This document shows, piece after piece, positions 35,923-53,288 of a DNA stretch of 64,000 bases. Where the stretch lies: NCBI RefSeq assembly GCF_030849025.1, contig NZ_CP118224.1:1596001-1660000 (forward strand), read 5' to 3'. The first letter of the stretch is position 1. Each line of letters starts with the position of its first letter. The DNA is from Oceanimonas pelagia (GTDB lineage Bacteria > Pseudomonadota > Gammaproteobacteria > Enterobacterales > Aeromonadaceae). A model generated the notes under the pieces. It saw nothing but the letters and a program-made list of their open reading frames with translations. It did not search any database and was not told the DNA's origin. The position numbers and the translations under genes are program-made.

Positions 35923-35984
35923 ACCATGACTTTTTTTGATATAGTAGAGGACCCAACGTTACAACTCCTGCGAGCATACCGCCG

Positions 35985-36866
35985 ATGAATGAACTGGCTC
36001 ACTTACTGGATACTCTCTCCCCTCGGGAAGGCTTCAATACCACCGCCATGCAGGGCGTTGGCGTGTATCGGGCCAGCCGCTCGGTGCCCAGAGAGCCCAT
36101 GTGCTACACCCAGGGCATTATTCTGGTGGCGCAAGGGGCCAAACGGGTTCATCTTGACGGCCGGGTCTATGACTACAACGCCAACAACTACCTGGTGATG
36201 ACCCTGCCCATTCCTGCCGAGTGCGAAACCCTGGTCACCCCGGGCGAGCCCTTGCTGGCGCTGCTGCTCGACATTCGCATGGACATGCTGCAACCGCTGA
36301 TCCGGTTGCTGGATGAACACAACCGGCTGCCGCCGCAGGCCGACGGTGCGGCACAGCCGGGGCTCTACGTCAGCCGGGTCACTGAGCAGCTTTCCGCCGC
36401 GGCCATTCGGCTCTGCCAGTGCCTCGACTCCCCCCTGACCGCAGCCGCCCTGGGGGAAGGGACACTGCGCGAAATTCTGTATCTGATCCTGACCGGTGAG
36501 CACGCCGCTCCCCTGTTCGACCTGGCCCGTTACAACACCCAGCTGGCGAGAATGGAGCGAGTACTGAAGCATATGCACGAGCATTATCAGGAGAGCCTGG
36601 AGGTAGAGCGGCTGGCGGCGCTGGCCGGCATGAGCACGTCATCGTTTCACCGCCACTTTCGCCAGGCCACCGGCTCCCCGCCCCTGCAGTATCTGAAGAA
36701 ACTGCGGCTGACCCGGGCCCGGGAGCTGCTGCAGGACAAGGACGTCAAGGTCAAGCAGGCCGCCGCCGAAGTGGGCTATGAAAGCCCCACCCAGTTCAGC
36801 CGCGAGTTCAAGCGCTACTTTGGCGTACCCCCGCAAAGCAGTGCCGGCGTATCACCGCCGGTATGA
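35985..36866 (+). CDS. yqhC: AraC-family regulator YqhC-like
   Basis: A 293-residue AraC regulator. The N-terminal AraC_N domain (about 20-160, with PMCYTQGIILVAQGAKRVHLDG) is of the YqhC type; the C-terminal double HTH (about 190-290) has YKKLRLTRARELL-like helices and ends FKRYFGVPPQ. In E. coli, YqhC activates yqhD and dkgA in response to aldehydes. Its last 52 bases overlap the convergent MFS gene on the other strand. Confidence 0.92.
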   Translation: MNELAHLLDTLSPREGFNTTAMQGVGVYRASRSVPREPMCYTQGIILVAQGAKRVHLDGRVYDYNANNYLVMTLPIPAECETLVTPGEPLLALLLDIRMDMLQPLIRLLDEHNRLPPQADGAAQPGLYVSRVTEQLSAAAIRLCQCLDSPLTAAALGEGTLREILYLILTGEHAAPLFDLARYNTQLARMERVLKHMHEHYQESLEVERLAALAGMSTSSFHRHFRQATGSPPLQYLKKLRLTRARELLQDKDVKVKQAAAEVGYESPTQFSREFKRYFGVPPQSSAGVSPPV

Positions 36867-38095: not shown

Positions 38096-38300
38096 ACGTA
38101 TCTCTGCAACGACATTAGGTTATTACACCTCAAAAATTTAAACATACCCGCAACAATACCAAAACACCCTTTCGGGAGTCCCGTAATCTAGCCCCTGTCA
38201 GCGTCATTGCCGCGCAAGATACCAGCCTGTAAAGCACAGAGACAACAGGTACCGAGTGATGATAGCGCATTAGCGCACAAGAAGGTTTCGATTAAATGAA

Positions 38301-38321
38301 AGGCTGCCATTTTAGGCAGCC
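38301..38321 (-). terminator. Hairpin after the NTF2-like gene
   Basis: GGCTGCC/GGCAGCC stem with a 6-base AT loop, then TTTCATTT in leftward reading; about 50 bases past the NTF2-like stop. Confidence 0.6.
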
Positions 38322-38330
38322 GTGCAGCAT

Positions 38331-38372
38331 TTTAAATGGGCATTACTGCCTTTCTCATGCCTATATCTATCA
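38331..38372. promoter_or_regulatory. Repeated 42-bp element, copy B
   Basis: 38 of 42 bases match 35881-35922, in the same orientation relative to leftward transcription. Its right end touches the stop codon of the NTF2-like gene. It lies between that gene and the MFS gene; the hairpin at 38301 lies between it and the MFS start, so any promoter role needs testing. The rest of 38096-38369 has no gene. Confidence 0.65.
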
Positions 38373-38747
38373 GTCGATATGAACCGCCGTTTTATTGGTG
38401 ATCAGCCACCGTCCATTCACCTCCAGCATGTTGTGAAAATCAACAAATGAGGCCGCCGGATCGGTCAGATTGTTAAAATTCATGATAACATTCGCCGCAC
38501 TGCCTACCTGATTAATCGACACGATTTGGGCATCAATGTCCCACCCGGTGCGGGACCAGCTCTCAAAACAGTCTGTCAGCAAATATTTATGCCGCTTGCC
38601 ACTGGCATCGATGAAGAAGATCCAGGCGTCTTTATCAAACGCCGCTTTGAACTTGTTGACATCCCCTTTCCAGCCTTCCACATACAAGTTGATAACATCG
38701 ATGATTTTTTGATAATCCGGCACGGCAGAAAGACCTTTTTCTGTCAT
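38370..38747 (-). CDS. NTF2-like (SnoaL/lumazine-binding type) protein
   Basis: A 125-residue cone-fold protein: DVINLYVEGWKGDVNKFKAAF at the start, the hydrophobic core FIDASGKRHKYLLTDCFESW, and the C-terminal strand MLEVNGRWLITNKT. It belongs to the nuclear transport factor 2 superfamily of small cytoplasmic ligand-binding or isomerase-like proteins; there is no signal peptide. The substrate is unknown. Its position next to YqhD-linked genes hints at aldehyde or small-carbonyl stress. Confidence 0.85.
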   Translation of the reverse strand: MTEKGLSAVPDYQKIIDVINLYVEGWKGDVNKFKAAFDKDAWIFFIDASGKRHKYLLTDCFESWSRTGWDIDAQIVSINQVGSAANVIMNFNNLTDPAASFVDFHNMLEVNGRWLITNKTAVHID

Positions 38748-38827
38748 AAATACCCCCTATATTGAGTGCTGACCATAACGAAAAAAAGCCCGCCATCAAG
38801 GCGGGCAAAGCACTGTCCATTCCGGAC

Positions 38828-40255
38828 TTACAACACACTGCTCCAGCGCCCCGGAAAGGCACGCTGTAATTCGCTGAAGGCTTCCAGCAACCGGCTGTTG
38901 GCGTCGATAACGCCGGCCTCGGAGGTCAGCAGATCCCGCTGGGCATCCAGGAAGTCCAGATAGGGGATCATGCCTTCTTCATATCTCGATTCGGCCTGCT
39001 CATAGGCGCTGCGGGCATACTCCTGCCGGCGCATCAGCGCCAGCACCTGCTGCTCCCGGGCCTGCCAGTCCTGAACCGCGCGGTCGGCCCGGTTAAGCAC
39101 ACGCAGCCAGGTCTGCTCGAACTCGGCCAGCACGGCCCGCTCTTCCAGCTTTTGGGCATCCAGACCGTCTCTCAGGGCCGACAGGTTCAGCAGAGACCAG
39201 CTCAGCTGCGGACGAATGCCCAGGTTTTCATCGGCGCCCCCCAACCCCAGGCTGGTACTGCTCATCCAGCCCAGCACACCACTCACACTGATGCTCGGAA
39301 AGAGCGCCGCCCTGGCCTCGTCAGACAGGGCCATCGCCTCGGCCACCCGGGCTTCGGCCAGCCGTATCTCCGGTGACTGGCGCAATGCCTGCTCGGGCTC
39401 GTGGATCTGCAACTGCAGTGATGCCAGTGCCGGCAGGCCGGCGGCCGACACCTGCTCCCGCACGTCGGGCAGGGTTACCCCCGTCAGAATGGCCAGGGCG
39501 TCCTGATACTGGGTTCGAAGCACTTCCAGTTCCGGACGGCGAGCACGATATTCATACCGCAGAGCCTGGGCCCGGCTCAGCTCCAGGGGCGTCGACAGCC
39601 CTTCTTCCACCCGCAGTGTCAGCACATCCACGCCTTCATCCAGCAACGTCAGCTGCTTGTCGAGCAGGGCCAGTTGCTCTTCCGCGCCCATCAGCCGGGT
39701 ATAGGTAGCCACGACGCCGCTGACCACATCGGCCATGGTCTGAGCCTCAAAGGCCTGACGATGGTCAAGGTTTGCCTGGGCCTGTCTCACCCGGGCGCGA
39801 ATGCGGCCAAACAGATCCAGCTGCCAGTCGGCGGCCAGTCCCAGTGTGGCACTTTCCTGACGGACCACATTCAGGCTCTGAGGGTCCTGCTGGCGGGTCA
39901 GGGATATGTTGCCGGCAACGCCTCCCTGAGGCCGCAGTTGATCCCGGCTCACCCGCAGGCGTTCCATGCCGGCCTCGAGGCGCAAGGCCGCCGCCTCCAG
40001 GTCGTGATTGTTGGCCAGGGCCTGCTCCACTAGGCGGTTCAGCTGCGCATCGCCATAGGCATGCCACCACTTGGCGGCCGCCTCGGTTTGCTCACCGTCC
40101 AGGCTCACCTGCCCGGTAATCTGTTGCATCACCTGCTGGTCCGGCGCCGGTAGTGCTTCATGCTCTGTGGTCACGGCACAGCCCGCCAGCAGCAATGCGA
40201 TGGAGGTCAGGGTCGGGAGCCGGTACAGGGCCACAGTATGGGTACGCTTACGCAT
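38828..40255 (-). CDS. RND outer-membrane lipoprotein channel (OprN/NodT type)
   Basis: A 475-residue TolC-like outer-membrane factor. A lipoprotein signal ends LLLAGCAV (lipobox Cys near residue 26); two OEP repeats span about 60-260 and 270-460. It forms the outer channel of the tripartite pump. It overlaps the RND gene by eight bases and is the third gene of a periplasmic adaptor-RND-channel operon. Confidence 0.93.
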   Translation of the reverse strand: MRKRTHTVALYRLPTLTSIALLLAGCAVTTEHEALPAPDQQVMQQITGQVSLDGEQTEAAAKWWHAYGDAQLNRLVEQALANNHDLEAAALRLEAGMERLRVSRDQLRPQGGVAGNISLTRQQDPQSLNVVRQESATLGLAADWQLDLFGRIRARVRQAQANLDHRQAFEAQTMADVVSGVVATYTRLMGAEEQLALLDKQLTLLDEGVDVLTLRVEEGLSTPLELSRAQALRYEYRARRPELEVLRTQYQDALAILTGVTLPDVREQVSAAGLPALASLQLQIHEPEQALRQSPEIRLAEARVAEAMALSDEARAALFPSISVSGVLGWMSSTSLGLGGADENLGIRPQLSWSLLNLSALRDGLDAQKLEERAVLAEFEQTWLRVLNRADRAVQDWQAREQQVLALMRRQEYARSAYEQAESRYEEGMIPYLDFLDAQRDLLTSEAGVIDANSRLLEAFSELQRAFPGRWSSVL

Positions 40256-43200
40256 GCTCTACCTCCTGACGAGGGGTTTCAGTGTTCTCATCGACCGCGG
40301 GCTTGCGCTCCAGGGCGGTCATGGCCATGTAAAATACCGGCGTAAACAGCAGGCCAAAGACGGTCACCCCAATCATGCCCGAGAACACCGCCACCCCCAT
40401 GGCCTGGCGCATCTCGGCACCGGCACCACTGGCCAGCACCAGGGGGACCACACCGGCGGTAAAGGCGATGGAGGTCATCAGTATCGGCCGCAGACGCAGG
40501 CGGCAGGCTTCCAGAATGGCTTCCAGCCGGGAGTTGCCCTCGTTACGGCTGTCCCGGGCGAATTCCACCATCAGAATGGCGTTCTTGCAGGCCAGCGCCA
40601 CCAGCACGATCAGCGCGATACGGGTGAAGATGTCGTTATCTCCGTCCACCAGCCAGATACCTGCCAGTGCCGACAAGATGGTCATGGGCACGATCAGGAT
40701 GATCGACAGCGGCAGGGTCAAACTCTCGTACTGGGCCGCCAGCACCATGAACACCAGCAATACCACCAGCGGGAAGATATACACCATGGTGTTGCCCGCC
40801 AGGATCTGCTGATAGGTCACCTCGGTCCACTCAAACGCCATACCGGTGTCGAGCTGCTCGTTCAGAATGCGCTCAATCGCCTGCTGCGCCTGATCCGAGC
40901 TGTAGCCGGGAGCCGGGTTACCGTTCAGCTCGGCGGTCGGATAGCCGTTGTAGTGCATTACCCGATCCGGTCCTATGGTGGACTCCACGGTCAGCACCGA
41001 GCCCAGGGGCACCATGTTGCCGGCCGCATTGCGCACCTTGAGCCGCAGGATCTGCTCGGGATCCACACGATGCTCGGCATCGGCCTGGGCATTCACCTGA
41101 TAGGTTTTGCCAAACAGGTTGAAGTCGTTTACATAGAGCGAGCCCAGATAGATTTGCAGGGTGTCGAACACCTGCTCCAGGGGAATGCCCTGCAGCATGG
41201 CCTGCTCACGGTCGATCTCGATGTCCATTTGCGGCACCTGAATACGGAAGCTGGAATACAGTCCGGTCAGTGCGGGATCCTGACGGGCCGCGTCCAGTAC
41301 CTTTTGCAGGTTGTCGAACAGCGCCTCAAAGCCCAGGCTGGCCCGGTCTTCAATCTGCAGCTTGAATCCACCCGTGGTGCCCAGACCCAGAATGGGCGGC
41401 GGCGGAAACACGGCCACAAAGGCCTCGTCAATACCGGCAAACTGGCCATTGAGCTGGCCGGCAATGGCATTGGCAGACAGGCTCGGAGCCTTGCGCTCGT
41501 CAAAGTCCTTCAGGGTAACGAACACGATGCCGCTGTTGGAGCTGTTGGTAAAACCGTTCACCGACAGTCCGGGGAAAGACACGGTTTGCATCACACCCGG
41601 GGTTTTCAGGGCAATTTGCTCCATCTCCCGCACCACCGACTCGGTTCTGTCCAGGCTGGCGGCGTCGGGCAGCTGCGCCACCGCCACCAGGTACTGTTTG
41701 TCCTGCAGGGGAATAAAGCCACCCGGTACCGCATTGAACAGGGTCACGGTCCCCCCCAGCAGGCCAACGTAAACCACGCCCACCACCACACTCAGGCGGA
41801 TCAGTTTTTTCACCCCTTTCTCGTACATTCGACCACCGCGCTCGAACAGGCGGTTAAAGGGAGCAAACAACCAGCGTCCAAAGAGGGCATTCATGCCGCG
41901 GGTCAGCCAGTCGGGCCTGGCATCGTGGCTGCGCAGCAAGAGTGCAGACAGCGCCGGCGACAGCGTCAGCGAGTTAAAGGCCGAAATCAGGGTAGAGATG
42001 GTAATGGTCAGCGCAAACTGCTTGTAAAACTGACCACTCAGACCCTGAATAAACGCCGTGGGAATAAACACCGCACACAACACCAGTGCGATGGCGATGA
42101 TGGGACCGGTTACCTCGGTCATGGCCTGACGAGTAGCTTCCACCGGCGACAGCCCGTTACCGATATTACGCTCCACGTTTTCCACCACCACGATGGCGTC
42201 GTCCACCACAATACCGATGGCCAGCACCAGACCAAACAGCGACAGGGTATTGATGGATACCCCCAGCCACTGCATGACCGCAAAGGTACCAATCAGCGAC
42301 ACCGGCACGGCAATCAGCGGAATAATGGAAGCGCGCCAGGTCTGCAGGAACAGGATGACGACCACTACCACCAGTACAATGGCTTCCAGCAGGGTATCGA
42401 TAACCGCATCGATGGAGCCACGCACAAACACGGTCGGGTCATAGGCGATGCGGTATTCCACGCCAGCAGGGAACTGCTCAGACAGCTCGTCCATGGTGGC
42501 CCGCACCTGATCCGACAGCTCAATGGCATTGGCGCCGGGGCGCTGGAAGATCGGGATGGCGACGGCGTTCTGCCCATTCAGCAGGGAGCGCAGGGAGTAG
42601 TTATCCAGGCCCAGCTCAATGCGCGCCACATCCTTCAGGCGAGTGATGGCGCCGCTGGGGTCCACCTGCACCACAATATTCTCAAATTCTTCGGTGCTTT
42701 CCAGACGACCTTTTACATTCAGCAAAATCTGGAATTCACTGTCGGTGCTGACCGGCTGGGCACCCAGGCTACCGGCGACAACCTGCTGGTTCTGCTCCCG
42801 CACGGCCTGCACCACATCCCCCGGCACCAGATTTCGTGCAGCCAGTGCCTCGGGATCCAGCCACAGACGCATGGCGTACTTGCCACCACCAAACATCTGC
42901 ACATCACCCACACCGGGCAGACGCGCCAGCTGATCCTTGATGTAGATATCGGCGTAGTTGGACAGGTAGCTGATTTCCCGATCACCTTCGGGAGAGATCA
43001 GATGCACCACCATGGTCAGGTTGGGCGAGGATTTTTCCGCCACTACCCCCAGGCGCTGCACTTCCTGCGGCAAACGCGGCAGGGCACTGGTCACCCGGTT
43101 TTGCACCTGTACCTGAGCCCGGTCCAGATCCGTACCCAGGGCAAAGGTCAGGGTCAGGGTCATACGGCCGTCTGTGGTGGCCTGGGAGAACATGTACAGC

Positions 43201-43430
43201 ATGTTTTCAATGCCGTTCATCTCCTGCTCCAGCGGCGCCGCCACGGTTTCGGCGATCACCTTGGGGTTGGCGCCCGGGTAGTTTGCCGTTACCACTACGG
43301 TGGGCGGCACCACTTCGGGATATTCACTGACCGGCAGCTGGAACAGCGAGATGCTGCCCCCCACCAGGATCAACAGCGACAGCATGGCCGCAAATATCGG
43401 CCGGCTGATAAAGAAATGACTGAATTTCAT
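40248..43430 (-). CDS. RND efflux transporter (MexF/OqxB type)
   Basis: A 1060-residue inner-membrane HAE1-type RND protein. The start MKFSHFFISRPIFAAMLSLLI matches MexF; proton-relay aspartates are in GLVLAIGIVVDDAIVVVENVERN (TM4). Two large periplasmic loops lie between TM1-2 and TM7-8. It exports drugs and organic compounds with proton influx, together with the adaptor encoded 16 bases upstream and the OprN-like channel downstream. Similarity to MexEF-OprN suggests substrates such as chloramphenicol-like and quinolone compounds, by family only. Confidence 0.95.
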   Translation of the reverse strand: MKFSHFFISRPIFAAMLSLLILVGGSISLFQLPVSEYPEVVPPTVVVTANYPGANPKVIAETVAAPLEQEMNGIENMLYMFSQATTDGRMTLTLTFALGTDLDRAQVQVQNRVTSALPRLPQEVQRLGVVAEKSSPNLTMVVHLISPEGDREISYLSNYADIYIKDQLARLPGVGDVQMFGGGKYAMRLWLDPEALAARNLVPGDVVQAVREQNQQVVAGSLGAQPVSTDSEFQILLNVKGRLESTEEFENIVVQVDPSGAITRLKDVARIELGLDNYSLRSLLNGQNAVAIPIFQRPGANAIELSDQVRATMDELSEQFPAGVEYRIAYDPTVFVRGSIDAVIDTLLEAIVLVVVVVILFLQTWRASIIPLIAVPVSLIGTFAVMQWLGVSINTLSLFGLVLAIGIVVDDAIVVVENVERNIGNGLSPVEATRQAMTEVTGPIIAIALVLCAVFIPTAFIQGLSGQFYKQFALTITISTLISAFNSLTLSPALSALLLRSHDARPDWLTRGMNALFGRWLFAPFNRLFERGGRMYEKGVKKLIRLSVVVGVVYVGLLGGTVTLFNAVPGGFIPLQDKQYLVAVAQLPDAASLDRTESVVREMEQIALKTPGVMQTVSFPGLSVNGFTNSSNSGIVFVTLKDFDERKAPSLSANAIAGQLNGQFAGIDEAFVAVFPPPPILGLGTTGGFKLQIEDRASLGFEALFDNLQKVLDAARQDPALTGLYSSFRIQVPQMDIEIDREQAMLQGIPLEQVFDTLQIYLGSLYVNDFNLFGKTYQVNAQADAEHRVDPEQILRLKVRNAAGNMVPLGSVLTVESTIGPDRVMHYNGYPTAELNGNPAPGYSSDQAQQAIERILNEQLDTGMAFEWTEVTYQQILAGNTMVYIFPLVVLLVFMVLAAQYESLTLPLSIILIVPMTILSALAGIWLVDGDNDIFTRIALIVLVALACKNAILMVEFARDSRNEGNSRLEAILEACRLRLRPILMTSIAFTAGVVPLVLASGAGAEMRQAMGVAVFSGMIGVTVFGLLFTPVFYMAMTALERKPAVDENTETPRQEVEHA

Positions 43431-43446
43431 GACGTCTCTAATCCGG

Positions 43447-44604
43447 TTATGCAGACGGTTCGGCGGCGGACTGGGGCTTGGCCAGGGTCAGGTGCTGGAC
43501 ATCAATCTCGACATTTCGCGGGGTCACCGGCATGCCCGGGCCAACCCGGGCCGGTCCGTTGGCGGCAATGCGCTCTCCCGGCTCCAGGCCGGCTTCCACC
43601 ACCCGCAGCGTGCCTTCGCGACGACCGAGTTCAACCTGGCGGTACTCGAGCACGTTCTCGGCGTTCACCACCAGCACAAAGCGGTTTTTCAGATCGGTGC
43701 CCACGGCGCGATCCGGCACCATCACGGTGGGACGGCTGCCGGCGGCCTTGAGGTGAATACGCGCAAAGGCGCCCGGACGCAGCTGGGCGTCTTTGGCGGT
43801 AAAGACCGCGCGCACGCGCAAAGTGCCGGTCTGTTCATTGATCTGGTTGTCAATGAAGTCCAGTACGCCGGCATGCTGCTCGCCGTTGCTGCCGGCCAGT
43901 GCCAGCATAACGGGCGTCTGGCCGTCGGCGGTAACCCCGGAAAATGACCCATTCCAGGTACGCTCATCCACGTCGAAATAGGCGTAGAGGCGGTCGGTGG
44001 CCAACAGCGAGGTCAGCACGCTCTGGCCCGCCTGCACATTGTTGCCCTCGGTGATAAAGGCATTGGACACCTGACCGTCAATGGGCGCCCGCACCTCGGT
44101 AAACTCGAGGTTCAGGCGCGCCGCCTGCAGGGCAGCCTGCACCGAGGCCAGCTCGGCCCGCCGCTGGCTGGCCAGCGACAGGCGGGATTCGGCCTGCTCT
44201 GCCGACATGGCATTACGGCCCTGCAGGCGCCTGGCACGCTGGGCCTCGGAGTTGGCCTGATGCAGCGCCGCCCGGGCTCGCTCCAGCTCGGCTTCAAGGC
44301 GGGCCACCTCGGCCGCAAAGGGGCGCGGGTCGATACGGAACAGCAACTCCCCCTGCTTTACATGGCTGCCTTCACGAAATTCCACCGACTCGATAACGCC
44401 GGAGACCCGGGGTCGCAGTTCAACCTGCCGGGGCGACTCCAGGCGAGTGGTAAAGGTGTATTCGGGGCTGTATTGGGCGTACAACACGGCGGCAACGTCC
44501 ACCGGCTGGGCGGCAGGGGTTGCCTTTGCGGTCGACTCCGCTTCGGCGAAGCATCCCGCCAGTACAGCGGTAAACAACAGACAGGACAGTAAACGAAATT
44601 GCAT
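43447..44604 (-). CDS. RND periplasmic adaptor (MexE/OqxA type)
   Basis: A 385-residue membrane fusion lipoprotein. The signal ends AVLAGCF (lipobox), followed by the biotinyl-lipoyl halves (ELRPRVSGVIESVEFREGSHVKQG and EVRAPIDGQVSN), an alpha-hairpin (about 100-165) and a beta-barrel domain. The ATG at 44604 has GGAG eight bases upstream and starts the signal peptide; longer frames are not supported. First gene of the pump operon. A strong dyad site lies 94 bases upstream. Confidence 0.93.
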   Translation of the reverse strand: MQFRLLSCLLFTAVLAGCFAEAESTAKATPAAQPVDVAAVLYAQYSPEYTFTTRLESPRQVELRPRVSGVIESVEFREGSHVKQGELLFRIDPRPFAAEVARLEAELERARAALHQANSEAQRARRLQGRNAMSAEQAESRLSLASQRRAELASVQAALQAARLNLEFTEVRAPIDGQVSNAFITEGNNVQAGQSVLTSLLATDRLYAYFDVDERTWNGSFSGVTADGQTPVMLALAGSNGEQHAGVLDFIDNQINEQTGTLRVRAVFTAKDAQLRPGAFARIHLKAAGSRPTVMVPDRAVGTDLKNRFVLVVNAENVLEYRQVELGRREGTLRVVEAGLEPGERIAANGPARVGPGMPVTPRNVEIDVQHLTLAKPQSAAEPSA

Positions 44605-45015
44605 GAGCCTAACTCCGGGGTTGGCGATCCAGAAAATGACGGAGCGCAAGTATCCGGAAGTTGGCTTCAACTCTGTAGCGGGTTGTTGGTTAAATTGGCT
44701 TAAACAAAAAGTTGAAGCATGTCCGTGCGGGACATGGTCATGGCTTTGAATGGAAAGGTAACAATGAGCGCGGCCTGGTCAGGAGAGTCTTAAAGGGAGA
44801 CTATCTCGCCGATTGATAAATAATCATACCGTTTTCCCTCTCAAGTATTATCAAAAAATTTTATAAAGTTATTCAACAGCGCCCGACTTTTTATTCTTCG
44901 CAATTCAAATAGAATGCCCCCACTCCGCAGCAAACACTGCCATGTCGCCACTAGGCATCGCCCAAGCCGACCTTCACATACCATATTTTCTGAACACCAT
45001 TACTCGGGGAGAACC
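44605..45015. other. Divergent promoter region of RND operon and nitroreductase
   Basis: This 411-base gap holds a half-site GCTTCAAC (44664-44671) and the full dyad at 44698-44718 near the RND side. An AT-rich stretch (44815-44905) probably contains the nitroreductase promoter. No gene is supported here. Confidence 0.6.
44698..44718. promoter_or_regulatory. Dyad site 3 upstream of the RND operon
   Basis: GCTTAAAC, AAAAA, GTTGAAGC: two inverted halves differing at one position, typical of a LysR T-N11-A type site. It lies 94 bases upstream of the adaptor gene start. An extra half-site (44664-44671) is exactly complementary to the right half. Confidence 0.7.
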
Positions 45016-45672
45016 ATGTCTCATCAAATCATCAAAGATCTTACCCGTCGCTACACCGTCAAGAAATACGACAGCAGCAAGCGTATTCCGGCCGAGGATC
45101 TGAACATTGTGCTGGAAGCCCTGCGTCTGTCTGCTTCCTCCATCAACTCCCAGCCCTGGAAATTTATCGTGATTGAGAGCGATGAAGCGAAGCAGCGCTT
45201 TCACGATACCTTTGCCAACAAGCATCAGTTCAACCAGCCCCATGCCAAAGAGGCGTCACACACCATACTGTTTGCCTATGATCCTTATTTCACCAAGGAC
45301 AAATACCGCAAACGGGTGGATGTCGAGGTCTCTTCCGGCCACCTGCCACCGGAGCTGTACGACAAAATGCTGGGGGCCTACGCCTTTGCCGAGGCCAACA
45401 CCGATGAAAACGGCTTCAACGGCCACTGGACCAAGGCACAGATTTACCTGGCGCTGGGTAATGCCCTGCATACCCTGGCGCGACTGGGTATTGATTCCAC
45501 CACCATGGAAGGAGTTGATCCTGAGTTGATAGGAGAAAAATTCAAAGAAGAATTGGGTGGTTACGTGTGTGAAGTGGCATTGGCCATGGGCTATTACAAG
45601 CAGGGCGAAGACTTCAACCACGGCCGGCCCAAGGCCCGCCTGCCCGCCGAAGACGTGATTGTGATGCTCTAA
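45016..45672 (+). CDS. NfsB-like NAD(P)H nitroreductase
   Basis: A 218-residue FMN nitroreductase. FMN contacts are visible in RRYTVKKYD, SSINSQPWKFIV and the C-terminal MGYYKQGEDFNHGRPKARLP. It resembles E. coli NfsB over its whole length. It reduces nitroaromatics and quinones by two electrons. The ATG at 45016 is preceded by GGGGAG. It is divergent from the RND operon and followed by a hairpin. Confidence 0.92.
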   Translation: MSHQIIKDLTRRYTVKKYDSSKRIPAEDLNIVLEALRLSASSINSQPWKFIVIESDEAKQRFHDTFANKHQFNQPHAKEASHTILFAYDPYFTKDKYRKRVDVEVSSGHLPPELYDKMLGAYAFAEANTDENGFNGHWTKAQIYLALGNALHTLARLGIDSTTMEGVDPELIGEKFKEELGGYVCEVALAMGYYKQGEDFNHGRPKARLPAEDVIVML

Positions 45673-45686
45673 TCCGGGTTATCAAT

Positions 45687-45711
45687 ACTTCCCCCGCTCA
45701 TCGGGGGAAGT
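45687..45711. terminator. Bidirectional terminator between nitroreductase and GFA gene
   Basis: ACTTCCCCCG (45687-45696) pairs perfectly with CGGGGGAAGT (45702-45711) around CTCAT, between convergent genes. Confidence 0.75.
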
Positions 45712-45722
45712 TCACGTTTATC

Positions 45723-46127
45723 TCATCGTTTCGGCAGCCCGTCATTGATATCAATAACCCTGCGGTCATAGAAAAAATGGGCCGTTAACTCAAAGCCATC
45801 GGGCAAAGGGCCCGGGTTACAGCGCTGGAACAACAGCTGAGACACCAGCTTCCACCCCATTGCATTGGTGTTATACAACACATCGCCACAGTGCTTGCAA
45901 AAGATGCGCGTCATGCGCTTGCGGGGATGCTGAAATTCAATAACATCCGCCTTGCCGCGTGTAATGGCGACATTGTCCGCTTCCCAGGCCAGCACCGAGT
46001 GGTACGGCACCTGCAGCAGCTCGCGGCAATCCTCACAATGACAGTAGCCATGTACCTTCGGCTGCCCCGTCATGGTGACTTCTACCGCCTCACAGTCACA
46101 GTGGACGGTATGCATGTGGTTCATCAT
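45723..46127 (-). CDS. GFA-family zinc protein
   Basis: A 134-residue glutathione-dependent formaldehyde-activating (GFA/Mss4-like) fold protein. Zinc ligands are likely in HCDCEAVEV, YCHCEDC and FCKHCGDVLY. Family members bind or process glutathione S-conjugates, but many have no assigned reaction. It is 64 bases after the old yellow enzyme gene on the same strand, so the two may share a transcript. Confidence 0.85.
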   Translation of the reverse strand: MMNHMHTVHCDCEAVEVTMTGQPKVHGYCHCEDCRELLQVPYHSVLAWEADNVAITRGKADVIEFQHPRKRMTRIFCKHCGDVLYNTNAMGWKLVSQLLFQRCNPGPLPDGFELTAHFFYDRRVIDINDGLPKR

Positions 46128-46190
46128 TTTCCCCTCTGCTCACGGGTTATCGCTGGTTGCTCACACCAGGGCCTTCAGCGCTCGGCCTTA

Positions 46191-47273
46191 TCAGGCTTCC
46201 GCCAGCGCTTCCAGGGTGGGGTAATCGTTATAGCCCTCGGCCCCCTGGCTGTAAAAGGTGGCCGGGTCGGGCTCATTGAGCTCGGCACCGGTCTGCAGGC
46301 GCGCCACCAGATCCGGGTTGGCGATAAAGGGCACGCCAAAGGCGATACCCTGTGCCTGACCGGATTGAACGGCGGCGTTGGCTTCCTCGCCGTCGTAACC
46401 CATGTTCAGGATCAGGTTGCCCCGATAGTGCTCACGGGCGGGCGTCACCACATCGCCTTGCTGCTCGCCAAGCACGTCGCCGCGCATCAGGTGCAGATAG
46501 GCCAGGTTGTAATCATTCAGACGCTGCGCCATCCAGGTGATCAAGCCGACCGGATCGCTGTCTTTCATGCTGTTGAAGCTGTTCAGCGGCGACAGACGCA
46601 CACCCACCCGATCACTGCCCCAGACGCCCACGACGGCATCCAGCACTTCCAGCAGCAGTCGGGCACGATTTTCTATCGGACCACCATAAGGGCCGGTGCG
46701 CTGATTGCCGCCGTCACGCAGGAACTGATCCAGCAGATAACCATTGGCACCGTGCACTTCCACGCCATCAAAACCGGCGCGTTTGGCATTTTCAGCGGCG
46801 ATTTTAAACCCTTCAACAATGGCCGGAATCTCGTCATCGCGCAGTTCACGGGGCACGGTGTAGGCCTTTTTCCCTTCCGGGGTATGCACTTCATCATTGG
46901 TGATGGCTACCGCACTGGGGGCCACCGGCACCCGGCCTTCATTGAGCAGCGGGTGACAGGCACGACCACCGTGCCAGAGCTGCAGAAAAATCTTGCCGCC
47001 GCGGGCATGCACGGCGTCGGTAACCTTTTTCCAGCCGGCCACCTGGGCGTCAGAATAGATGCCCGGCTCACGCCAGAACGCCGAATTGCCTTCCATCACC
47101 ATGGTCGCTTCGGCAATCAGCAGGCCGGCGGACGCACGCTGGGCATAATGCTCCACGATCAGGTCGGTAGGAACATGGTCGGCATCGGCGCGAATACGTG
47201 TCAGCGGGGCCATCAGCACCCGGTTGTTCAGTTCAACGGCACCAAGCCGAACCGGCGTAAAGAGATCTGTCAT
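46191..47273 (-). CDS. Old yellow enzyme, NemA-like alkene reductase
   Basis: A 360-residue FMN ene-reductase. Typical motifs: VLMAPLTRIRADADHVPT, the substrate-binding H-x-x-N in VEVHGANGYLLDQFL, RTGPYGGPIENRARL and IAFGVPFIANPDL. It reduces activated alkenes such as maleimides and quinones with NADPH. The ATG at 47273 is preceded by GAGG. A dyad site lies 103 bases upstream, shared with the RND operon and quinone reductase genes. Confidence 0.94.
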   Translation of the reverse strand: MTDLFTPVRLGAVELNNRVLMAPLTRIRADADHVPTDLIVEHYAQRASAGLLIAEATMVMEGNSAFWREPGIYSDAQVAGWKKVTDAVHARGGKIFLQLWHGGRACHPLLNEGRVPVAPSAVAITNDEVHTPEGKKAYTVPRELRDDEIPAIVEGFKIAAENAKRAGFDGVEVHGANGYLLDQFLRDGGNQRTGPYGGPIENRARLLLEVLDAVVGVWGSDRVGVRLSPLNSFNSMKDSDPVGLITWMAQRLNDYNLAYLHLMRGDVLGEQQGDVVTPAREHYRGNLILNMGYDGEEANAAVQSGQAQGIAFGVPFIANPDLVARLQTGAELNEPDPATFYSQGAEGYNDYPTLEALAEA

Positions 47274-47375
47274 TGTAATCCTCGCTATCGTTACAGGCAG
47301 GTTCCGCCTGCCAAAGGCACGGCCATATTGCGCCAGAACCTGCCTCGACGGGGTAGTCATGTCGGCCTTGGAACT

Positions 47376-47396
47376 GTTATAAGCAAAAGTTGAAAC
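47376..47396. promoter_or_regulatory. Dyad site 4 upstream of the old yellow enzyme gene
   Basis: GTTATAAGC, AAAA, GTTGAAAC. The right half matches sites 1, 3 and 5; the left half is weaker. It lies 103 bases upstream of the start codon, the same distance class as the RND site. Confidence 0.6.
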
Positions 47397-47478
47397 CAAC
47401 ACCCTAGACTTCATATCCTTCCAGAGGAAAGGTTCCCATTCCTAGAGAAGGCATCATGTTCATTACGGGTAACTCCTG

Positions 47479-48396
47479 TTATTGCGGGTGAAACAAGGGC
47501 AAAACACGCTCGCCGATGTCGTGAAAAGTGTCATCCAGTGGTCGTTGATTGCGGCGCACATGCAGGCCGATGTGATCCACCCCGGCGGATTTCATGGCTT
47601 CCAGTTCCTTGATCAGGCCGTTGATGCCGGTGCTGATGCCGAAATGGTGTCGCCGTATGGGGGCGTCCACATCGCCGACCAGATCCAGGTGAATAAAGCT
47701 GATGTAGGGCTTGTCTCCGGCAACGCGGCGCCAGAGCTCAACCCGCTTGATGTGATCCTGCGGTGTGCCCGGATAGGCCAGCCAGCCCTGCATATGCTCC
47801 CCCACCCAGGCAGGGCTTTGCTGCGCCAGCCCGGCCACCAGCAAGGGCGGCTGGGGCGCCTTGGGCAGCACTTCCATGCCACTTGCCAGAACGCCGTCCT
47901 GGTCGCCACGAAGCACGCTCACGGCGTCGCGAAAACGCTCACCCCGGCCGGGAAATTCCACCCCGAAAATCGGGTATTCACTGGGGCGGTCACCGCTGGC
48001 AACCCCCAGCAACAGGCGATCGCCGCTCAGTGCCTGGACCGTGGCGGCGGCCTTGCGTACCAGCCAGGGCTGGCGCAGCGGCAGCACCACGGCGGCGGTG
48101 CCCAGCAGGATCTGCTGCGTGTGTGAGGCCAGGTACCCCAGGTAGGTAAAGGTTTCAAACACCTGGGCAGCATCACCGAATTTCGGGTCGTACAGGGGCA
48201 CATCGCGCACCCAGGCCGCTCTGAATCCCAGTTGATCGGCCAGCCGGATCAGTTCGGCGTGTCGTTGCATGTCCGGCACACCAAAAGGGCGGCCATCCTG
48301 CCGACGGCGCGTGTCGCCCTCGGCAGACCAGTCATTGTCGAGGGGCAGTTCCAGTCCGATGGAAAAACCGCCCTGGGTCAGTTTTTCAATGCTCAT
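47479..48396 (-). CDS. LLM-class flavin oxidoreductase
   Basis: A 305-residue luciferase-like monooxygenase of TIM-barrel fold (FSIGLELPLDNDWS, RHAELIRLADQLGFRAAWVRDVPLYDP, LLLGVASGDRPSEYP). It probably uses reduced flavin and oxygen to oxidise an organic substrate that is not identified. The ATG at 48396 has GGGAG eight bases upstream. It is 51 bases after the MFS gene on the same strand, and probably cotranscribed with it. Confidence 0.88.
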   Translation of the reverse strand: MSIEKLTQGGFSIGLELPLDNDWSAEGDTRRRQDGRPFGVPDMQRHAELIRLADQLGFRAAWVRDVPLYDPKFGDAAQVFETFTYLGYLASHTQQILLGTAAVVLPLRQPWLVRKAAATVQALSGDRLLLGVASGDRPSEYPIFGVEFPGRGERFRDAVSVLRGDQDGVLASGMEVLPKAPQPPLLVAGLAQQSPAWVGEHMQGWLAYPGTPQDHIKRVELWRRVAGDKPYISFIHLDLVGDVDAPIRRHHFGISTGINGLIKELEAMKSAGVDHIGLHVRRNQRPLDDTFHDIGERVLPLFHPQ

Positions 48397-48447
48397 TACA
48401 AACACTCCCGGGCGAAGCCTGGCTTCGCCCTTGTTTACATTTCAGTC

Positions 48448-49623
48448 TCAGGCGGCTCGTGCCTCGGCACGCTTGTCGAGGGCGCCGGAGAACCGGGTCA
48501 GCACCAGTGCCAGCAGCACGATCAGGGCGCCAATCCAGGCGGTGTCCATCAGCGACATGCCTTCGATAATCACGCCACCCAGTACCGAGCCCAGGGCAAT
48601 GCCTACGTTAAAGGCGGCGATGTTCAGGCCGGATGCCACGTCCACCGCCTCGGGGGTGTATTTTTCGGCCAGTTGCACCACATACACCTGGAGTCCGGGC
48701 ACATTGCCAAAGGCGAACGCGCCCCAGACCAGAATGGTCAGCACCGCGGCCACCGGGTGGACGGCGGTAAAGGTGAAGACCAGCAGGATCAGCGCCAGTG
48801 CCGCGAAGATAATGTTCAGCGCCTTGATCGGGCCCAGACGATCCGCCAGACGGCCACCCCAGATATTGCCGATGGCCACCGATACGCCGTATACCAGCAT
48901 GATGAGGCCGATGGCACCGGACTCGAAACCGGACACCTGCTCCAGGATCGGCGCCAGAAAGGTGAAAGCGGTAAAGGTGCCGCCATAGCCCACGGCGGTC
49001 ATGGCATACACCAACAGCAGGCGCGGCTGAGTCAGCACCTTCAGTTGCTGTGCAATGCGCGCCGGCGGGGCCTGCTTGAGGTTTTTCGGTACCAGCAGGG
49101 CGCTGCCGACAAGGGCAATCAGGCCCAGTGCCGCCACCACCATGAAGGTGGCGCGCCAGCCGAAGCTTTGGCCGATCCAGGTGCCCAGGGGCACGCCGGT
49201 TACCAGGGCCACGGTCAGGCCGGTAAACATGATGGCAATGGCGCTGGCTTCCTTGTCTTTGCTCACCAGGCCGGTGGCAATGGTGGAGCCAATCGAGAAA
49301 AACACCCCGTGAGCCAGGCCGGTAAGAATGCGCGCCATGATCAGGGAGTTATAGCCCGGTGCCATCCAGGCCAGCAGGTTGCCGATCACAAACAGCGACA
49401 TAATGGTCATCAATACGTTTTTACGTTGCCAGCGTCCGGTCAGTGCGGTCAGCACAGGGGCGCCCACGGCCACACCAAGGGCATAAAGGCTGACCAGCAG
49501 GCCGGCCGATGGCAGGGATACACCCAGATCCTGGGCAATGGTGGGTACCAGTCCGACAATCACAAATTCGGTGGTACCGATTGCAAATGCGCTCAGGGTC
49601 AACGCAAGAAGAGCAACAGGCAT
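48448..49623 (-). CDS. MFS transporter, AraJ/YdhP-like
   Basis: A 391-residue protein with 12 predicted helices (FAIGTTEFVIVGLVPTIAQDLGVS, GLAHGVFFSIGSTIA). DHA1-type sugar or drug efflux family. It is divergent from a LysR gene whose start lies 92 bases away; the intervening TTTGCAAA repeats are probable operators. The cotranscribed luciferase-like oxidoreductase suggests modification and export of the same compound. Confidence 0.88.
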   Translation of the reverse strand: MPVALLALTLSAFAIGTTEFVIVGLVPTIAQDLGVSLPSAGLLVSLYALGVAVGAPVLTALTGRWQRKNVLMTIMSLFVIGNLLAWMAPGYNSLIMARILTGLAHGVFFSIGSTIATGLVSKDKEASAIAIMFTGLTVALVTGVPLGTWIGQSFGWRATFMVVAALGLIALVGSALLVPKNLKQAPPARIAQQLKVLTQPRLLLVYAMTAVGYGGTFTAFTFLAPILEQVSGFESGAIGLIMLVYGVSVAIGNIWGGRLADRLGPIKALNIIFAALALILLVFTFTAVHPVAAVLTILVWGAFAFGNVPGLQVYVVQLAEKYTPEAVDVASGLNIAAFNVGIALGSVLGGVIIEGMSLMDTAWIGALIVLLALVLTRFSGALDKRAEARAA

Positions 49624-49673
49624 AACAGTCTCCGCTATGAGTTAGATTGCCGCGAAGTATGCCCACTGCTATC

Positions 49674-49714
49674 TTTTGCAAAAACAGCATCACCAACAAA
49701 ATACCTTTGCAAAT
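49674..49714. promoter_or_regulatory. TTTGCAAA repeats between LysR and MFS genes
   Basis: TTTTGCAAA (49674-49682) and CTTTGCAAAT (49705-49714) are near-identical, self-complementary sites 31 bases apart in the 91-base divergent gap. The second abuts the LysR start codon, which suggests autorepression. Confidence 0.6.
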
Positions 49715-50605
49715 ATGGCAATAGTCTCTCGTACCGAAGATCTGGAAATTTTACTGACGGTGATCGACAGCGGCAGCCTGTCGGCGGCGGCCCGCATTCT
49801 CGACATTCAGGTGGCCCGGGTATCCCGCGCCCTGAGCCGGCTGGAAAGGGAACTGGACTGCACCCTGCTGAACCGCACCACGCGCAAGCTGGAGCTGACC
49901 GAAGAAGGCCGACTGTTCAGCGAGCAGGCCCGCGAGGGCCTCGACCGGCTGGCCGAAGCCGAAGAAAACCTGAGGGCATTGCGCGGCATACCGTCGGGCC
50001 GGCTGCGAGTGGATGCAGTCACCCCCTTTATTCTGCATCAGCTGGTGCCGCTGGTGCCGGGCTTTCGCGAGCGATATCCGCAGATTGAACTGGAGCTGGT
50101 CGCCAATGAAAACATCATCGACCTGATTGAGCGCCGCACCGATCTCGCCATTCGCATCGGCGCCCTGCAGGACTCCAACCTGCATGCCCGTTTTCTGGGG
50201 CGCAGCCCGCTGCATATGGTGGCCTCGCCGGCCTACCTGGAACAACACGGCACACCCCAGACCCTGGATGCGCTGTTTCACCACCAGATCATCGGCTTTG
50301 CCGATGCACCCCACCTCAACCGCTGGCCACTGTCGCCCCCGGTGACCGTGGTACCCAACCTGTCCAGCAGCAGCGGCGAGACCATTCGCCAGCTTTGCTT
50401 GGCCGGACAGGGGCTGGCATTGCTGTCCGATTTCATGATCTGTGACGATCTGGCCAGTGGTCGCCTGGTCAAGGTACTGGACAGTTACATCCTCACCCCC
50501 AACGACCGCGAGCAGGTCCATGCCGTTTACTACCGCAATACCACCCTGTCCAGCCGCATCACCGCCTTTCTCGACTATATTTCCCGTCGCCTGAAGCTGG
50601 CATAA
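49715..50605 (+). CDS. LysR-family regulator, divergent from the MFS-LLM operon
   Basis: A 296-residue LTTR. The HTH is at about 8-66 (DSGSLSAAARILDIQVARVSRALSRLERELDCTLLNRTTRKLELTEEG), and the effector domain starts near 90. The ATG at 49715 is directly preceded by an operator-like TTTGCAAAT, and no clear ribosome site exists, so translation may be weak or leaderless. It probably controls the divergent MFS and luciferase-like genes. Confidence 0.88.
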   Translation: MAIVSRTEDLEILLTVIDSGSLSAAARILDIQVARVSRALSRLERELDCTLLNRTTRKLELTEEGRLFSEQAREGLDRLAEAEENLRALRGIPSGRLRVDAVTPFILHQLVPLVPGFRERYPQIELELVANENIIDLIERRTDLAIRIGALQDSNLHARFLGRSPLHMVASPAYLEQHGTPQTLDALFHHQIIGFADAPHLNRWPLSPPVTVVPNLSSSSGETIRQLCLAGQGLALLSDFMICDDLASGRLVKVLDSYILTPNDREQVHAVYYRNTTLSSRITAFLDYISRRLKLA

Positions 50606-50664
50606 TGGCCGAGCCACTGCTGTCGCGGACCCTTTTGTTCTTTCCGGAATAGGACAAGGACTAC

Positions 50665-50686
50665 GCTTTCAACTAAAGGTTGAAGC
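50665..50686. promoter_or_regulatory. Dyad site 5 upstream of the quinone reductase operon
   Basis: GCTTTCAAC, TAAAG, GTTGAAGC: the most symmetric of the set. The right half is identical to that of site 3. It ends 76 bases upstream of the start codon. Confidence 0.7.
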
Positions 50687-50761
50687 CATTTTAAACGAAC
50701 TGTGGCTACAAACAGCCCTCTTGTTTGCCTTATGGTGCTTCCATCACCTGGAGACAACGCC

Positions 50762-51436
50762 ATGAATACCTTAATCGTCTACTGGCATCCGGAGCCGGCC
50801 AGCTTCAACGCCGCCATGCTGCGCACCGCCAGTCGCGTACTGACCGCCGAAGGGCACGAGGTGCAGATTTCCGACCTGCACGAGCTGGCATTCAACCCGG
50901 TATCGGGCCGGCATAATTTTATCACCACGGCCAACCCGGATTACTTCAAGCAGCAGGACGAAGAAGCCCATGCCGCCAGACATGATGGCTTTGCAGAAGA
51001 CATTCACACCGAGCGCCAGAAGCTGGCATGGTGCGATCTGCTGATTTTTCAGTTCCCCCTGTGGTGGTCTGGCATGCCCGCCATGATGAAGGGCTGGGTA
51101 GACCGCGTGTTTACCTGCCAGCATGACGACGAAACCAAATACCGTTGCGAAGCCGCCCCCTGTAAGGGCAAGCGCGCCATGCTGTCGTTGACCACGGGTG
51201 GCCCGGCCTCACAGTACTCCGCCGGCGGCCCCCTCGGCACCATGCCGGAAGTCTTGGGCCCCATACACAAGGGCATGCTGGCCCTGGCCGGCTTTCAGGT
51301 ACTGGAACCCTTTGTCGCCTATCAGCCGGCCTGCCTGTGCGAGCATGGACGCATCGCGTTGCTTGAACAATACACGCACCGGTTGCGAGGGCTCGAACAG
51401 GAAACGGCCATTCCCCTTCCCTCTTTATGTAACTGA
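50762..51436 (+). CDS. Flavodoxin-fold NAD(P)H:quinone reductase
   Basis: A 224-residue NQO1/KefF-type protein. FAD/FMN contacts are in YWHPEPASFNAAM and FQFPLWWSGMPAMMKGWVDRVF; a glycine-rich TTGGPASQYSAGGPLG follows. It reduces quinones by two electrons. The ATG at 50762 with GGAG upstream is chosen over a longer frame. First gene of a unit with yghU (20 bases) and a LysR gene. Confidence 0.9.
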   Translation: MNTLIVYWHPEPASFNAAMLRTASRVLTAEGHEVQISDLHELAFNPVSGRHNFITTANPDYFKQQDEEAHAARHDGFAEDIHTERQKLAWCDLLIFQFPLWWSGMPAMMKGWVDRVFTCQHDDETKYRCEAAPCKGKRAMLSLTTGGPASQYSAGGPLGTMPEVLGPIHKGMLALAGFQVLEPFVAYQPACLCEHGRIALLEQYTHRLRGLEQETAIPLPSLCN

Positions 51437-51456: not shown

Positions 51457-52299
51457 ATGACGACTCCCTACACTCCGCCCAGGGTCTGGACCTGGGACCA
51501 AGCCAATGGCGGCGAATTTGCCCACATCAACCGCCCCGTGGCCGGTGCCACCCATGAGAAAACCCTGCCGGTAGGCAAGCACCCGCTGCAGCTCTATTCC
51601 CTGGCCACGCCCAACGGCGTCAAGGTAACCGTGATGCTGGAAGAGCTGCTGGCCCTGGGCCACAGCGGCGCCGAATATGACGCCTGGCTGATCCGCATCG
51701 GTGAGGGAGATCAGTTTTCCTCCGGTTTTGTGGAAGTGAACCCCAACTCCAAGATTCCGGCGCTGGTGGATAACAGCACCGACCGGCCGGTGCGTGTGTT
51801 TGAGTCCGGTTCCATTCTGCTGTACCTCGCCGAAAAGTTCGGCGCCCTGCTGCCCACAGATCCGGCGCAGAAAACCGAGGTGATGAACTGGCTGTTCTGG
51901 CAAATGGGCTCGGCACCCTACCTGGGCGGCGGTTTTGGCCATTTTTACGCCTACGCGCCGGAAAAGCTGGAATATCCCATCAACCGCTTTAGCATGGAAA
52001 CCAAGCGTCAGCTGGATGTACTCGATCGCCAGCTGGCCGAGCGCCCCTTTATTGCCGGCGACCACTACAGCATTGCCGACATTGCCATCTGGCCCTGGTA
52101 TGGCGCCCTGGTATTGGGTCGACTGTACGACGCAGCAGAATTCCTGTCGGTGTCCGACTATCCCAACGTATTGCGCTGGGCCAACGCCATCGATGCGCGT
52201 CCTGCCGTGCAGCGCGGCCGGCGGGTTAACCGGATCTGGGGCGATGAATCCGAGCAACTGGCCGAACGGCACAGTGCGGACGATTTCAATCCCGCCTGA
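51457..52299 (+). CDS. yghU: Glutathione transferase-like disulfide oxidoreductase YghU
   Basis: A 280-residue protein close to E. coli YghU throughout (INRPVAGATHEKTLPVGKHP; VEVNPNSKIPALVD; FESGSILLYLAEKFG). A thioredoxin-fold N-domain is followed by an all-alpha C-domain. It binds two glutathione molecules and has disulfide reductase activity in E. coli. Here it is coupled to a quinone reductase, which fits detoxification of electrophiles. The ribosome site AGGAG precedes the ATG. Confidence 0.95.
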   Translation: MTTPYTPPRVWTWDQANGGEFAHINRPVAGATHEKTLPVGKHPLQLYSLATPNGVKVTVMLEELLALGHSGAEYDAWLIRIGEGDQFSSGFVEVNPNSKIPALVDNSTDRPVRVFESGSILLYLAEKFGALLPTDPAQKTEVMNWLFWQMGSAPYLGGGFGHFYAYAPEKLEYPINRFSMETKRQLDVLDRQLAERPFIAGDHYSIADIAIWPWYGALVLGRLYDAAEFLSVSDYPNVLRWANAIDARPAVQRGRRVNRIWGDESEQLAERHSADDFNPA

Positions 52300-52361: not shown

Positions 52362-53288
52362 ATGATCCCCAACCAGCTCAACATTTTTCTTGCGGTGGTC
52401 AAGAACGGCAACTTTTCTTCCGCGGCCCGCCATCTGGGAGTGACCTCGGCGGCCGTCAGCAAGGCCGTGGCTCAACTGGAAAAGTCGCTGGAACTGCGTT
52501 TGTTTCACCGCACCACCCACTCGCTCACCCTGACCGAAGACGGCCACGAATTGTACAAGCGAACCGAACCCCTGGTTGAGCAGCTGGAAGATCAGATCCG
52601 GCGCAGCAAAGACAAGAAAAAGCAGCCCCACGGCCGCCTGAAGATCAACCTGCCCGACAGCTTCGGGCGCATGGTGGTGCTGCCCCTGCTGCCCGCCTTC
52701 CTCGAAAAATACCCGGATATTGAGCTGGATCTGCAGTTCGATGATCGCATCGGCGACCTGGTCAAGGAGGGTGCCGATGTGGGCATTGGCGTCATGCTCA
52801 ATCAGGACAGCCGCCTGATCGCCCGCGACTTCTACAAACTGCAGCCGGTACTGGTGGCCAACAGTGACTACATTGAGAAGTTTGGCGAGCCCAAAACGCC
52901 GGATGATTTGTCCCGGCACAACTGCATTGCCTATCGATCTTCCACCACCGGCCGTAAAAAGACCTGGGATTTTCGCGTCAATGGCGAGGTAATTCACCGG
53001 GAGCCTCAGGGCAACCTGACCGTCAACAGCCTGTCGGCCGCCATCAAGGCGGTGGAAATGGGGGTGGGTATTGCGGCCGTGGGCATAGGCCACGCCCAGA
53101 CCTGTATCGAGCAGGGCTGCTTTCGCCGTGTGTTGCGTGAATACGAGGCCGATCCCATTCAGGTGAAAATTTACTATTCGTCCCGCAACTACCTGCCGGC
53201 GAAAACCCGCTTGTTTATCGATCATATGATGGAGCATGTGCACGATGAGCGAACGGCCGATCTGGACGCCATCGTGCACGAACTGTAG
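52362..53288 (+). CDS. LysR-family regulator downstream of yghU
   Basis: A 308-residue LTTR of the DNA-binding class with HTH NGNFSSAARHLGVTSAAVSKAVAQLEKSLELRLFHRTTHSLTLTEDG. The effector domain contains an unusual Lys-rich hinge (SKDKKKQPHGRLKIN). It is codirectional with the quinone reductase and yghU genes, so it is one candidate for the factor that binds the GTTGAAGC dyads. Convergent with the EamA gene, five bases away. Confidence 0.9.
   Translation: MIPNQLNIFLAVVKNGNFSSAARHLGVTSAAVSKAVAQLEKSLELRLFHRTTHSLTLTEDGHELYKRTEPLVEQLEDQIRRSKDKKKQPHGRLKINLPDSFGRMVVLPLLPAFLEKYPDIELDLQFDDRIGDLVKEGADVGIGVMLNQDSRLIARDFYKLQPVLVANSDYIEKFGEPKTPDDLSRHNCIAYRSSTTGRKKTWDFRVNGEVIHREPQGNLTVNSLSAAIKAVEMGVGIAAVGIGHAQTCIEQGCFRRVLREYEADPIQVKIYYSSRNYLPAKTRLFIDHMMEHVHDERTADLDAIVHEL

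Follow-up and report, generated by a model that had tools for sequence, protein, structure and literature searches.

Gene content of the locus

A common sequence element has been found in front of four genes or operons in a 64,000-bp stretch of the Oceanimonas pelagia genome (hereafter the window; positions 1596001-1660000 of G000, a single contig of 3,592,406 bp). The first of these units is located on the minus strand and encodes a resistance-nodulation-division (RND) efflux pump. It comprises a MexE-type RND adaptor (43447-44604; best model MexE, 397 bits, under the equivalog cut-off of 714), a MexF-type RND permease which passes RND_permease_1 (40248-43430), and an OprN-type outer-membrane efflux subunit (38828-40255; TIGR01845, 214 bits for a cut-off of 210). 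Judged by these family matches, the pump is of the MexEF type and not MexE sensu stricto, and the MexE, MexF and OprN homologues form one predicted operon. The same strand carries the gene of an N-ethylmaleimide reductase-like old yellow enzyme (OYE; 46191-47273; NF007899, 360 bits, cut-off 403) and secP (33711-33956), the name given here to the gene of a small secreted protein of 81 aa with two GIDR/GVDR repeats, for which neither a Pfam family at cut-off nor a match in plasmids was found.

The plus strand carries an apparent three-gene operon, mdaB-gst-lysR2. The name mdaB is used here for a gene of the Flavodoxin_2 family encoding a KefF/MdaB-like NAD(P)H (quinone) reductase (50762-51436; best NCBIfam model KefF, 74 bits, under the cut-off of 210). 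It is followed by a glutathione S-transferase (GST) gene assigned by family search (gst, 51457-52299) and by the gene of LysR2 (52362-53288), the proposed regulator of the system. The genes of LysR1, LysR3 and LysR4 are found at 49715, 55045 and 58469, respectively.

A 46-bp element in four promoters

A preliminary description of the window had reported dyads located 94, 103, 76 and 105 bases upstream of the pump, OYE, mdaB and secP genes. All four are present, at 44698-44718, 47376-47396, 50665-50686 and 34061-34078, respectively, and these distances hold for the ATG starts 44604, 47273, 50762 and 33956, which were read from the sequence (for the pump and OYE, from alignment and reading). Alignment of orthologous promoters revealed that the dyad is the upstream portion of a longer conserved block. 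This 46-bp element, which has a fixed spacing, occupies 44673-44718 at the pump, 47351-47396 at OYE and 34033-34078 at secP, all on the minus strand, and 50666-50711 on the plus strand at the mdaB-gst-lysR2 operon. The reported sharing of a motif among all sites is thus borne out, but the motif is longer than described and its palindrome is good at only some of them.

The consensus reads GYTTCAAC-N5-NTTGAARC ... TACA, with GYTTCAAC at position 1, TACA at position 42 and constant spacing. GYTTCAAC has variants among the sites; the second half-site lies at positions 14-21 and an A/T-rich block at about 24-31, which is TTTAAAC-like at the pump and mdaB and TTCCAAAG-like at OYE and secP. The motif at position 42 is TACA at every site bar one (TACC), and in the secP element it belongs to a -35-like TACACA (34037-34032). 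Positions 6-9 (AACT), 15, 28-29 and 42-44 are invariant among 17 distinct sites. The palindrome is genuine in this register, with 58% of the pairs matching versus at most 43% in slid registers. Its quality is uneven: 6-7 of the 8 pairs match at the pump and mdaB sites of the genus and 5 of 8 at the pump sites of Marinobacterium, versus only 1-5 of 8 at the OYE and secP sites, where mainly the upstream half is kept, so that the term dyad describes well just part of the sites. A consensus-like promoter, TTGAAA-18-TATCCT (47390-47419, plus strand), begins within the OYE element on the opposite strand. No Rfam family reached its gathering score within 33500-51000.

Rarity of the element in the genome

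Short patterns gave an indication of how rare the element is. AAAAGTTGAARC occurs three times in G000, always at window sites (34067, 44707 and 47385), for about 0.25 occurrences expected from base composition, and its reversed control pattern occurs twice. Without mismatch, GCTTTCAAC-N5-GTTGAAGC has a single occurrence in G000, at 50665; when up to three mismatches are allowed, it gives 12 matches versus 6 for the control, which makes the loose dyad alone a weak criterion. A palindrome-only search, which returned many weak dyads with four mismatches and was uninformative before the longer element was recognized, was abandoned. In the genus comparison set (23 genomes, G000 included), AAAAGTTGAARC by itself gives 33 matches across 15 genomes, 11 of them in G013. 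It was rejected as sole criterion outside G000, as only 10 of the 30 loci fetched for it bear the full element by matrix (3 further matches were left unfetched).

A 46-bp matrix separates the four promoters from the rest of the window, with scores of 60.6 (secP), 55.2 (pump), 47.7 (OYE) and 45.4 bits (mdaB), followed by 17.1 bits for a dyad at 34231 and by 10.6 bits. When the sites of one gene were withheld from the matrix, they were still recovered at 34.4-34.5 (pump), 20.2-38.6 (OYE), 25.8-40.4 (mdaB) and 40.5 bits (secP), while 60 dinucleotide shuffles of the window reached at most 15.1 bits. The secP copy, first described as the weaker one, is in fact the strongest of the window by full profile and remains so when withheld (40.5 bits versus 34.4, 30.9 and 25.8 for the other three). 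Across about 2.13 million positions (the window and the fetched loci, partly redundant) scanned at thresholds of 20.2-22 bits, only five operator-like sites and one stray segment were found outside training, the latter with 23.8 bits in one leave-one-out run (locus L161 of G012).

A sequence-only covariance model was built from 13 sites and run on the 23 genus genomes, with up to 150 candidates scored per genome. It identifies exactly four strong sites in G000 (E 3.4e-8 to 2.0e-10), all of them the window promoters, and a fifth at E 0.108. The genome scan proposed in the preliminary description thus shows that the motif is not equally frequent elsewhere. In the whole set, 16 matches at E<=6.5e-8 are located in six genomes, four in G000 and the others in G005, G010, G014, G016 and G020; 13 are the training sites and the remaining three are secP-type sites of G005. 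The best E value among the other 17 genomes is 0.098.

Conservation in related genomes

Conservation at orthologous promoters follows the same pattern. The block is kept in front of OYE in all six close-orthologue promoters (proteins 93-100% identical), where the sequence 5' of it is not conserved, in front of the pump in 3/3 (G000, G005 and G014) and in front of mdaB in 3/3 (G000, G005 and G010). More distant OYE homologues (41-50%), present in 8 of the 17 element-free genus genomes, and a distant pump homologue in G006 (48%) are not preceded by the element. In G005, where the mdaB site is preceded at 130 bp by another, weaker one (34.3 bits), three secP relatives are found, one at the matching locus and two in tandem, each behind an element; those of the tandem paralogues, which were outside training, score 56.0 and 43.5 bits.

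The element also recurs beyond the genus. In Marinobacterium lacunae and M. zhoushanense, likewise outside training, an element with the same spacing precedes mexE (41.6 and 30.9 bits, respectively), and the M. lacunae site is the sole match at E<=1 in that genome (E 8.0e-4). Marinobacterium belongs to the Oceanospirillales (looked up for M. lacunae) and Oceanimonas to the Aeromonadales. Genome-wide uniqueness, footprints at orthologues and this recurrence before mexE in another order support the earlier view that the sites belong to one regulon. Neither of the refuting conditions named in the preliminary description, equal frequency elsewhere and lack of conservation at orthologues, is borne out.

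LysR2 as candidate regulator

LysR2 orthologues (78-100% identity) are found in exactly the six of the 23 genus genomes which hold strong sites, with 78-99% identity in the five other than G000; the next homologue in the genus is 36% identical. The position of the gene shifts among the targets: it lies downstream of mdaB-gst in G000, G005 and G010, divergent from OYE in G016, and directly upstream of mexE in G014. In M. lacunae and M. zhoushanense, LysR2 (72 and 71%, respectively) adjoins mexE-mexF-oprN in convergent orientation, the adaptor and permease of these pumps being 74-75% and 88-89% identical to those of the window. This co-occurrence and shifting adjacency make LysR2 the most likely regulator and agree with the LysR-type regulator initially suggested, for which four proteins had been listed; LysR2 is favored among them, while LysR1 and LysR3 lack counterparts in several element-bearing genomes. 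At E<=1e-60, LysR1 has a match in 4/8 of the genomes with LysR2 and the element, being without one in G010, G016 and both Marinobacterium genomes, and LysR3 in 2/8; both were ruled out on this basis.

NCBIfam LysR models align with LysR2 over almost its full length, with no model at cut-off among the 25 of 55 matches listed. The protein is predicted to contain an N-terminal LysR helix-turn-helix and a C-terminal substrate-binding domain. Its relatives of solved structure are, in order, PDB 3szp (E 1.7e-40), 3t1b, 3mz1 and 3hhg (E 3e-27), phmmer matching 3szp over residues 4-290 and 3hhg over residues 5-293. The first 60 residues, which contain the helix-turn-helix, show 6 differences between the window and M. 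lacunae and many with a Neptunomonas homologue (37%), at whose locus (L142) no site above 5 bits was found by matrix. Cys188 is present in all eight LysR2 orthologues, with an equivalent residue in the Neptunomonas homologue, and Cys248 and Cys253 are limited to the six genus members; from this pattern, thiol sensing is possible.

When 369 genomes of the class were searched, the window protein itself was the sole match at E<=1e-75 among those listed (up to six candidates per genome), and a contig search from two peptide patterns returned 15 loci; at this depth, orthologues may have been missed. A MexEF-TolC-type operon of Pseudoalteromonas (L191, 6944-9170) is accompanied by a divergent LysR gene whose product is 28% identical to LysR2 over 303 positions, and LysR proteins of this type may thus control MexEF pumps more widely.

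Proposed mechanism and alternative explanations

Collectively, these comparisons make it highly probable that a single small, local regulon of the LysR type has these four sites as its operators, and its regulator would most likely be LysR2, acting as an electrophile-responsive activator. As the apparent product of the mdaB-gst-lysR2 operon, LysR2 would be controlled by its own operator, and co-transcription with mdaB would imply positive autoregulation in G000, G005 and G010. The protein is proposed to bind the 46-bp element through a recognition dyad at about -77 to -57, followed by the A/T-rich block and by TACANN as putative -35, with a LysR2 tetramer spanning from the dyad to the -35. This positioning derives from a promoter match at secP, TACACA-18-TATCAT, which overlaps TACANN and would place the dyad center near -66. 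LysR proteins classically recognize their sites at about -66, the usual place for activation by this family, and the box near -60 inferred earlier is compatible with this value, although the other three genes gave no promoter match at that position.

The nature of the targets, an OYE, a flavodoxin-fold reductase and a GST, points to quinones, enones or nitroaromatics as the signal. An electrophilic co-inducer of one of these classes would trigger LysR2, which would then activate the MexEF-OprN-type pump, OYE, the flavin reductase and GST, secP and LysR2 itself in a feed-forward loop.

Several observations weigh against this model. A consensus scan found a -35/-10 pair at the matching position for secP only, and not for the pump, OYE or mdaB. 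Several OYE sites have a poor dyad, those of G005 and G014 matching in just 1-2 of 8 pairs. The OYE open frame of G000 continues upstream across the element, as far as an ATG at 47414; 47273 was taken as the start since the alignment with the orthologues, which have open frames of differing lengths, begins at that residue. In G020, LysR2 is not adjacent to the element-bearing OYE but about 2.4 kb away. The six element-bearing genomes of the genus are related and all training sites come from them, so that 6/6 versus 0/17 does not amount to six independent events. In Marinobacterium, the mexE site of M. zhoushanense is the best genome-wide but not significant (E 0.122), and the genome-wide profile shows no clear further site in either genome. 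Lastly, among the four local LysR proteins, the cross-genome comparison covered LysR1, LysR2 and LysR3.

A chance likeness of A/T-rich intergenic palindromes is hardly credible as an explanation. Intergenic DNA is rich in palindromes, the genome contains 12 matches to the loose dyad for 6 to its control, and genomes lacking LysR2 give a few weak profile matches (E about 0.1-0.5); yet the full element is unique to these promoters in the genome and recovered by the leave-one-gene-out test, and its retention at orthologues refutes chance. Within a genuine regulon, the element might instead be bound by one of the other LysR proteins encoded nearby (49715, 55045 or 58469) or by several of them redundantly. 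All these LysR genes lie in a 15-kb region and the YafC/CrgA-like proteins are related in sequence, LysR1 being 30% identical to LysR2, but this assignment is improbable given that the LysR1 gene has an MFS gene as divergent partner and that, in the comparison covering LysR1-LysR3, LysR1 and LysR3 are missing at E<=1e-60 from 4/8 and 6/8 element genomes, respectively.

Activation itself can be questioned, as NemR-type systems are repressors released by electrophiles and LysR2 might similarly act at the element mainly as a repressor relieved by such compounds. LysR proteins, CrgA included, are described as able to repress or activate (PMC6422896). The element, however, stops at the putative -35 and does not extend over -10/+1, and the dyad center would lie near -66 on the predicted promoter, which makes predominant repression unlikely, if still worth considering. 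Control of the pump by a MexT orthologue, with the motif as a drifted MexT nod box, would account for the likeness in gene content to the MexT regulon, which includes mexEF-oprN and xenB (PMC12607905) and pyeRM-xenB (PMC7950407). This explanation is very improbable: ATYA-N7-YGAT (up to one mismatch) is present in 0/4 promoters, a weak test because a 121-bp control stretch upstream of Azotobacter mexE also lacks it, and LysR2 shares only 22% identity over 116 residues with the Azotobacter MexT-like protein, their nearest solved structures being different.

Neighboring genes

Downstream of secP, at a distance of 132 bp and on the same strand, lies a MATE exporter gene (32235-33578, minus strand). 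A terminator scan found none in the gap; by eye, an inverted repeat and a T-run are seen at about 33660-33685. The gene was weighed as an additional member of the regulon in G000, but is not proposed as one. In G020 and G016, a MATE homologue is located directly downstream of OYE and may therefore join the regulon there. The gene of LysR1 (YafC-like, 354 bits, cut-off 470) and an MFS exporter gene are divergently arranged in G000 (48448-50605), G005, G014 and G020, and the two probably form a separate regulatory pair.

A perfect dyad, GTTTAAAC-TTTTT-GTTTAAAC, is located at 34231-34251 on the plus strand and corresponds to the fifth match of the covariance model and the 17.1-bit match of the matrix. 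It lacks the downstream spacing of the element, and a similar dyad is found in G005 (1402716); it is perhaps a degenerate copy, a second site or the site of a lost LysR protein. A LysR gene remnant is present within an open frame at 34370-34665 (plus strand). The stretches of G005 which match this region are separated by roughly an additional 2.4 kb and 0.5 kb, and that locus contains an MdaB-like gene followed by a complete LysR homologue (1405088-1405999). Given this extra DNA and the complete gene, the G000 strain appears to have undergone a loss of DNA at this point.

Comparison with known systems

The system resembles that of MexT in Pseudomonas aeruginosa, in which a LysR regulator is tied to a MexEF-OprN-type pump and to an OYE, which we take xenB to encode. 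The MexT regulon includes mexEF-oprN and xenB (PMC12607905 Table 1) among at least 150 genes (PMC12607905), MexT is linked to pyeRM-xenB, xenB being called a xenobiotic reductase (PMC7950407), and its operator is given as ATYA-N7-YGAT (PMC11432991). The LysR2 element differs from that operator and has four strong sites in G000, in contrast to this large regulon. LysR2 was rejected as MexT itself. The Azotobacter MexT-like protein used for comparison has its gene next to mexEF and near an alcohol dehydrogenase gene, and matches PDB 6l33 ('MexT protein') with 367 bits, while 6l33 is missing from the structure matches of LysR2 at E<=1e-10; the rest of G000 was not searched for a MexT orthologue. 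The earlier suggestion that the regulator is not MexT and may be new agrees with these data.

CrgA of Neisseria meningitidis, presumably the protein of PDB 3hhg, offers another parallel, as a related LysR protein with an mdaB-type target. It could also provide a precedent for the signal, alpha-methylene-gamma-butyrolactone being an electrophile. This compound is named as co-inducer in N. meningitidis (PMC7448277, citing a CrgA paper), and CrgA is described as repressing or activating the crgA/mdaB promoter, to which it binds (PMC6422896). The CrgA operator is described only as T-N11-A. Unlike for LysR2, no pump, OYE, GST or secP is named among the CrgA targets in the text seen. LysR2 and CrgA are related only, and not orthologues, as 3hhg ranks behind 3szp, 3t1b and 3mz1. 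The best relative of solved structure is 3szp, which we assume to be AphB of Vibrio; the AphB targets are tcpPH, unlike those of LysR2. In Acinetobacter baumannii, the AdeL-AdeFGH system comprises an RND operon related to the pump (40.5% identity between the adaptors) and a LysR gene in divergent orientation; this comparison covered the gene layout and the adaptor, adeL being annotated in two pieces in the record used.

A search of titles and abstracts found no description of this regulon and none of Oceanimonas with MexEF. For a MexEF-type pump outside Pseudomonas, there is now a defined operator together with one best candidate regulator and a brief list of targets. This makes it testable, in an environmental marine bacterium, whether such pumps naturally serve to remove electrophiles or quinones in concert with reducing enzymes. 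We consider the evidence evenly balanced on the broader proposal that marine gammaproteobacteria have built a MexT-like stress regulon of pump, ene-/quinone-reductases and small secreted protein on a LysR protein which is unrelated and has a distinct operator, by independent assembly or by regulator replacement, and that SecP, with three element-bearing copies in one relative, is a new periplasmic component of electrophile defense. If the same functional set is indeed found here and in the MexT system under unrelated regulators, selection would keep the set itself together, and not a common regulator.

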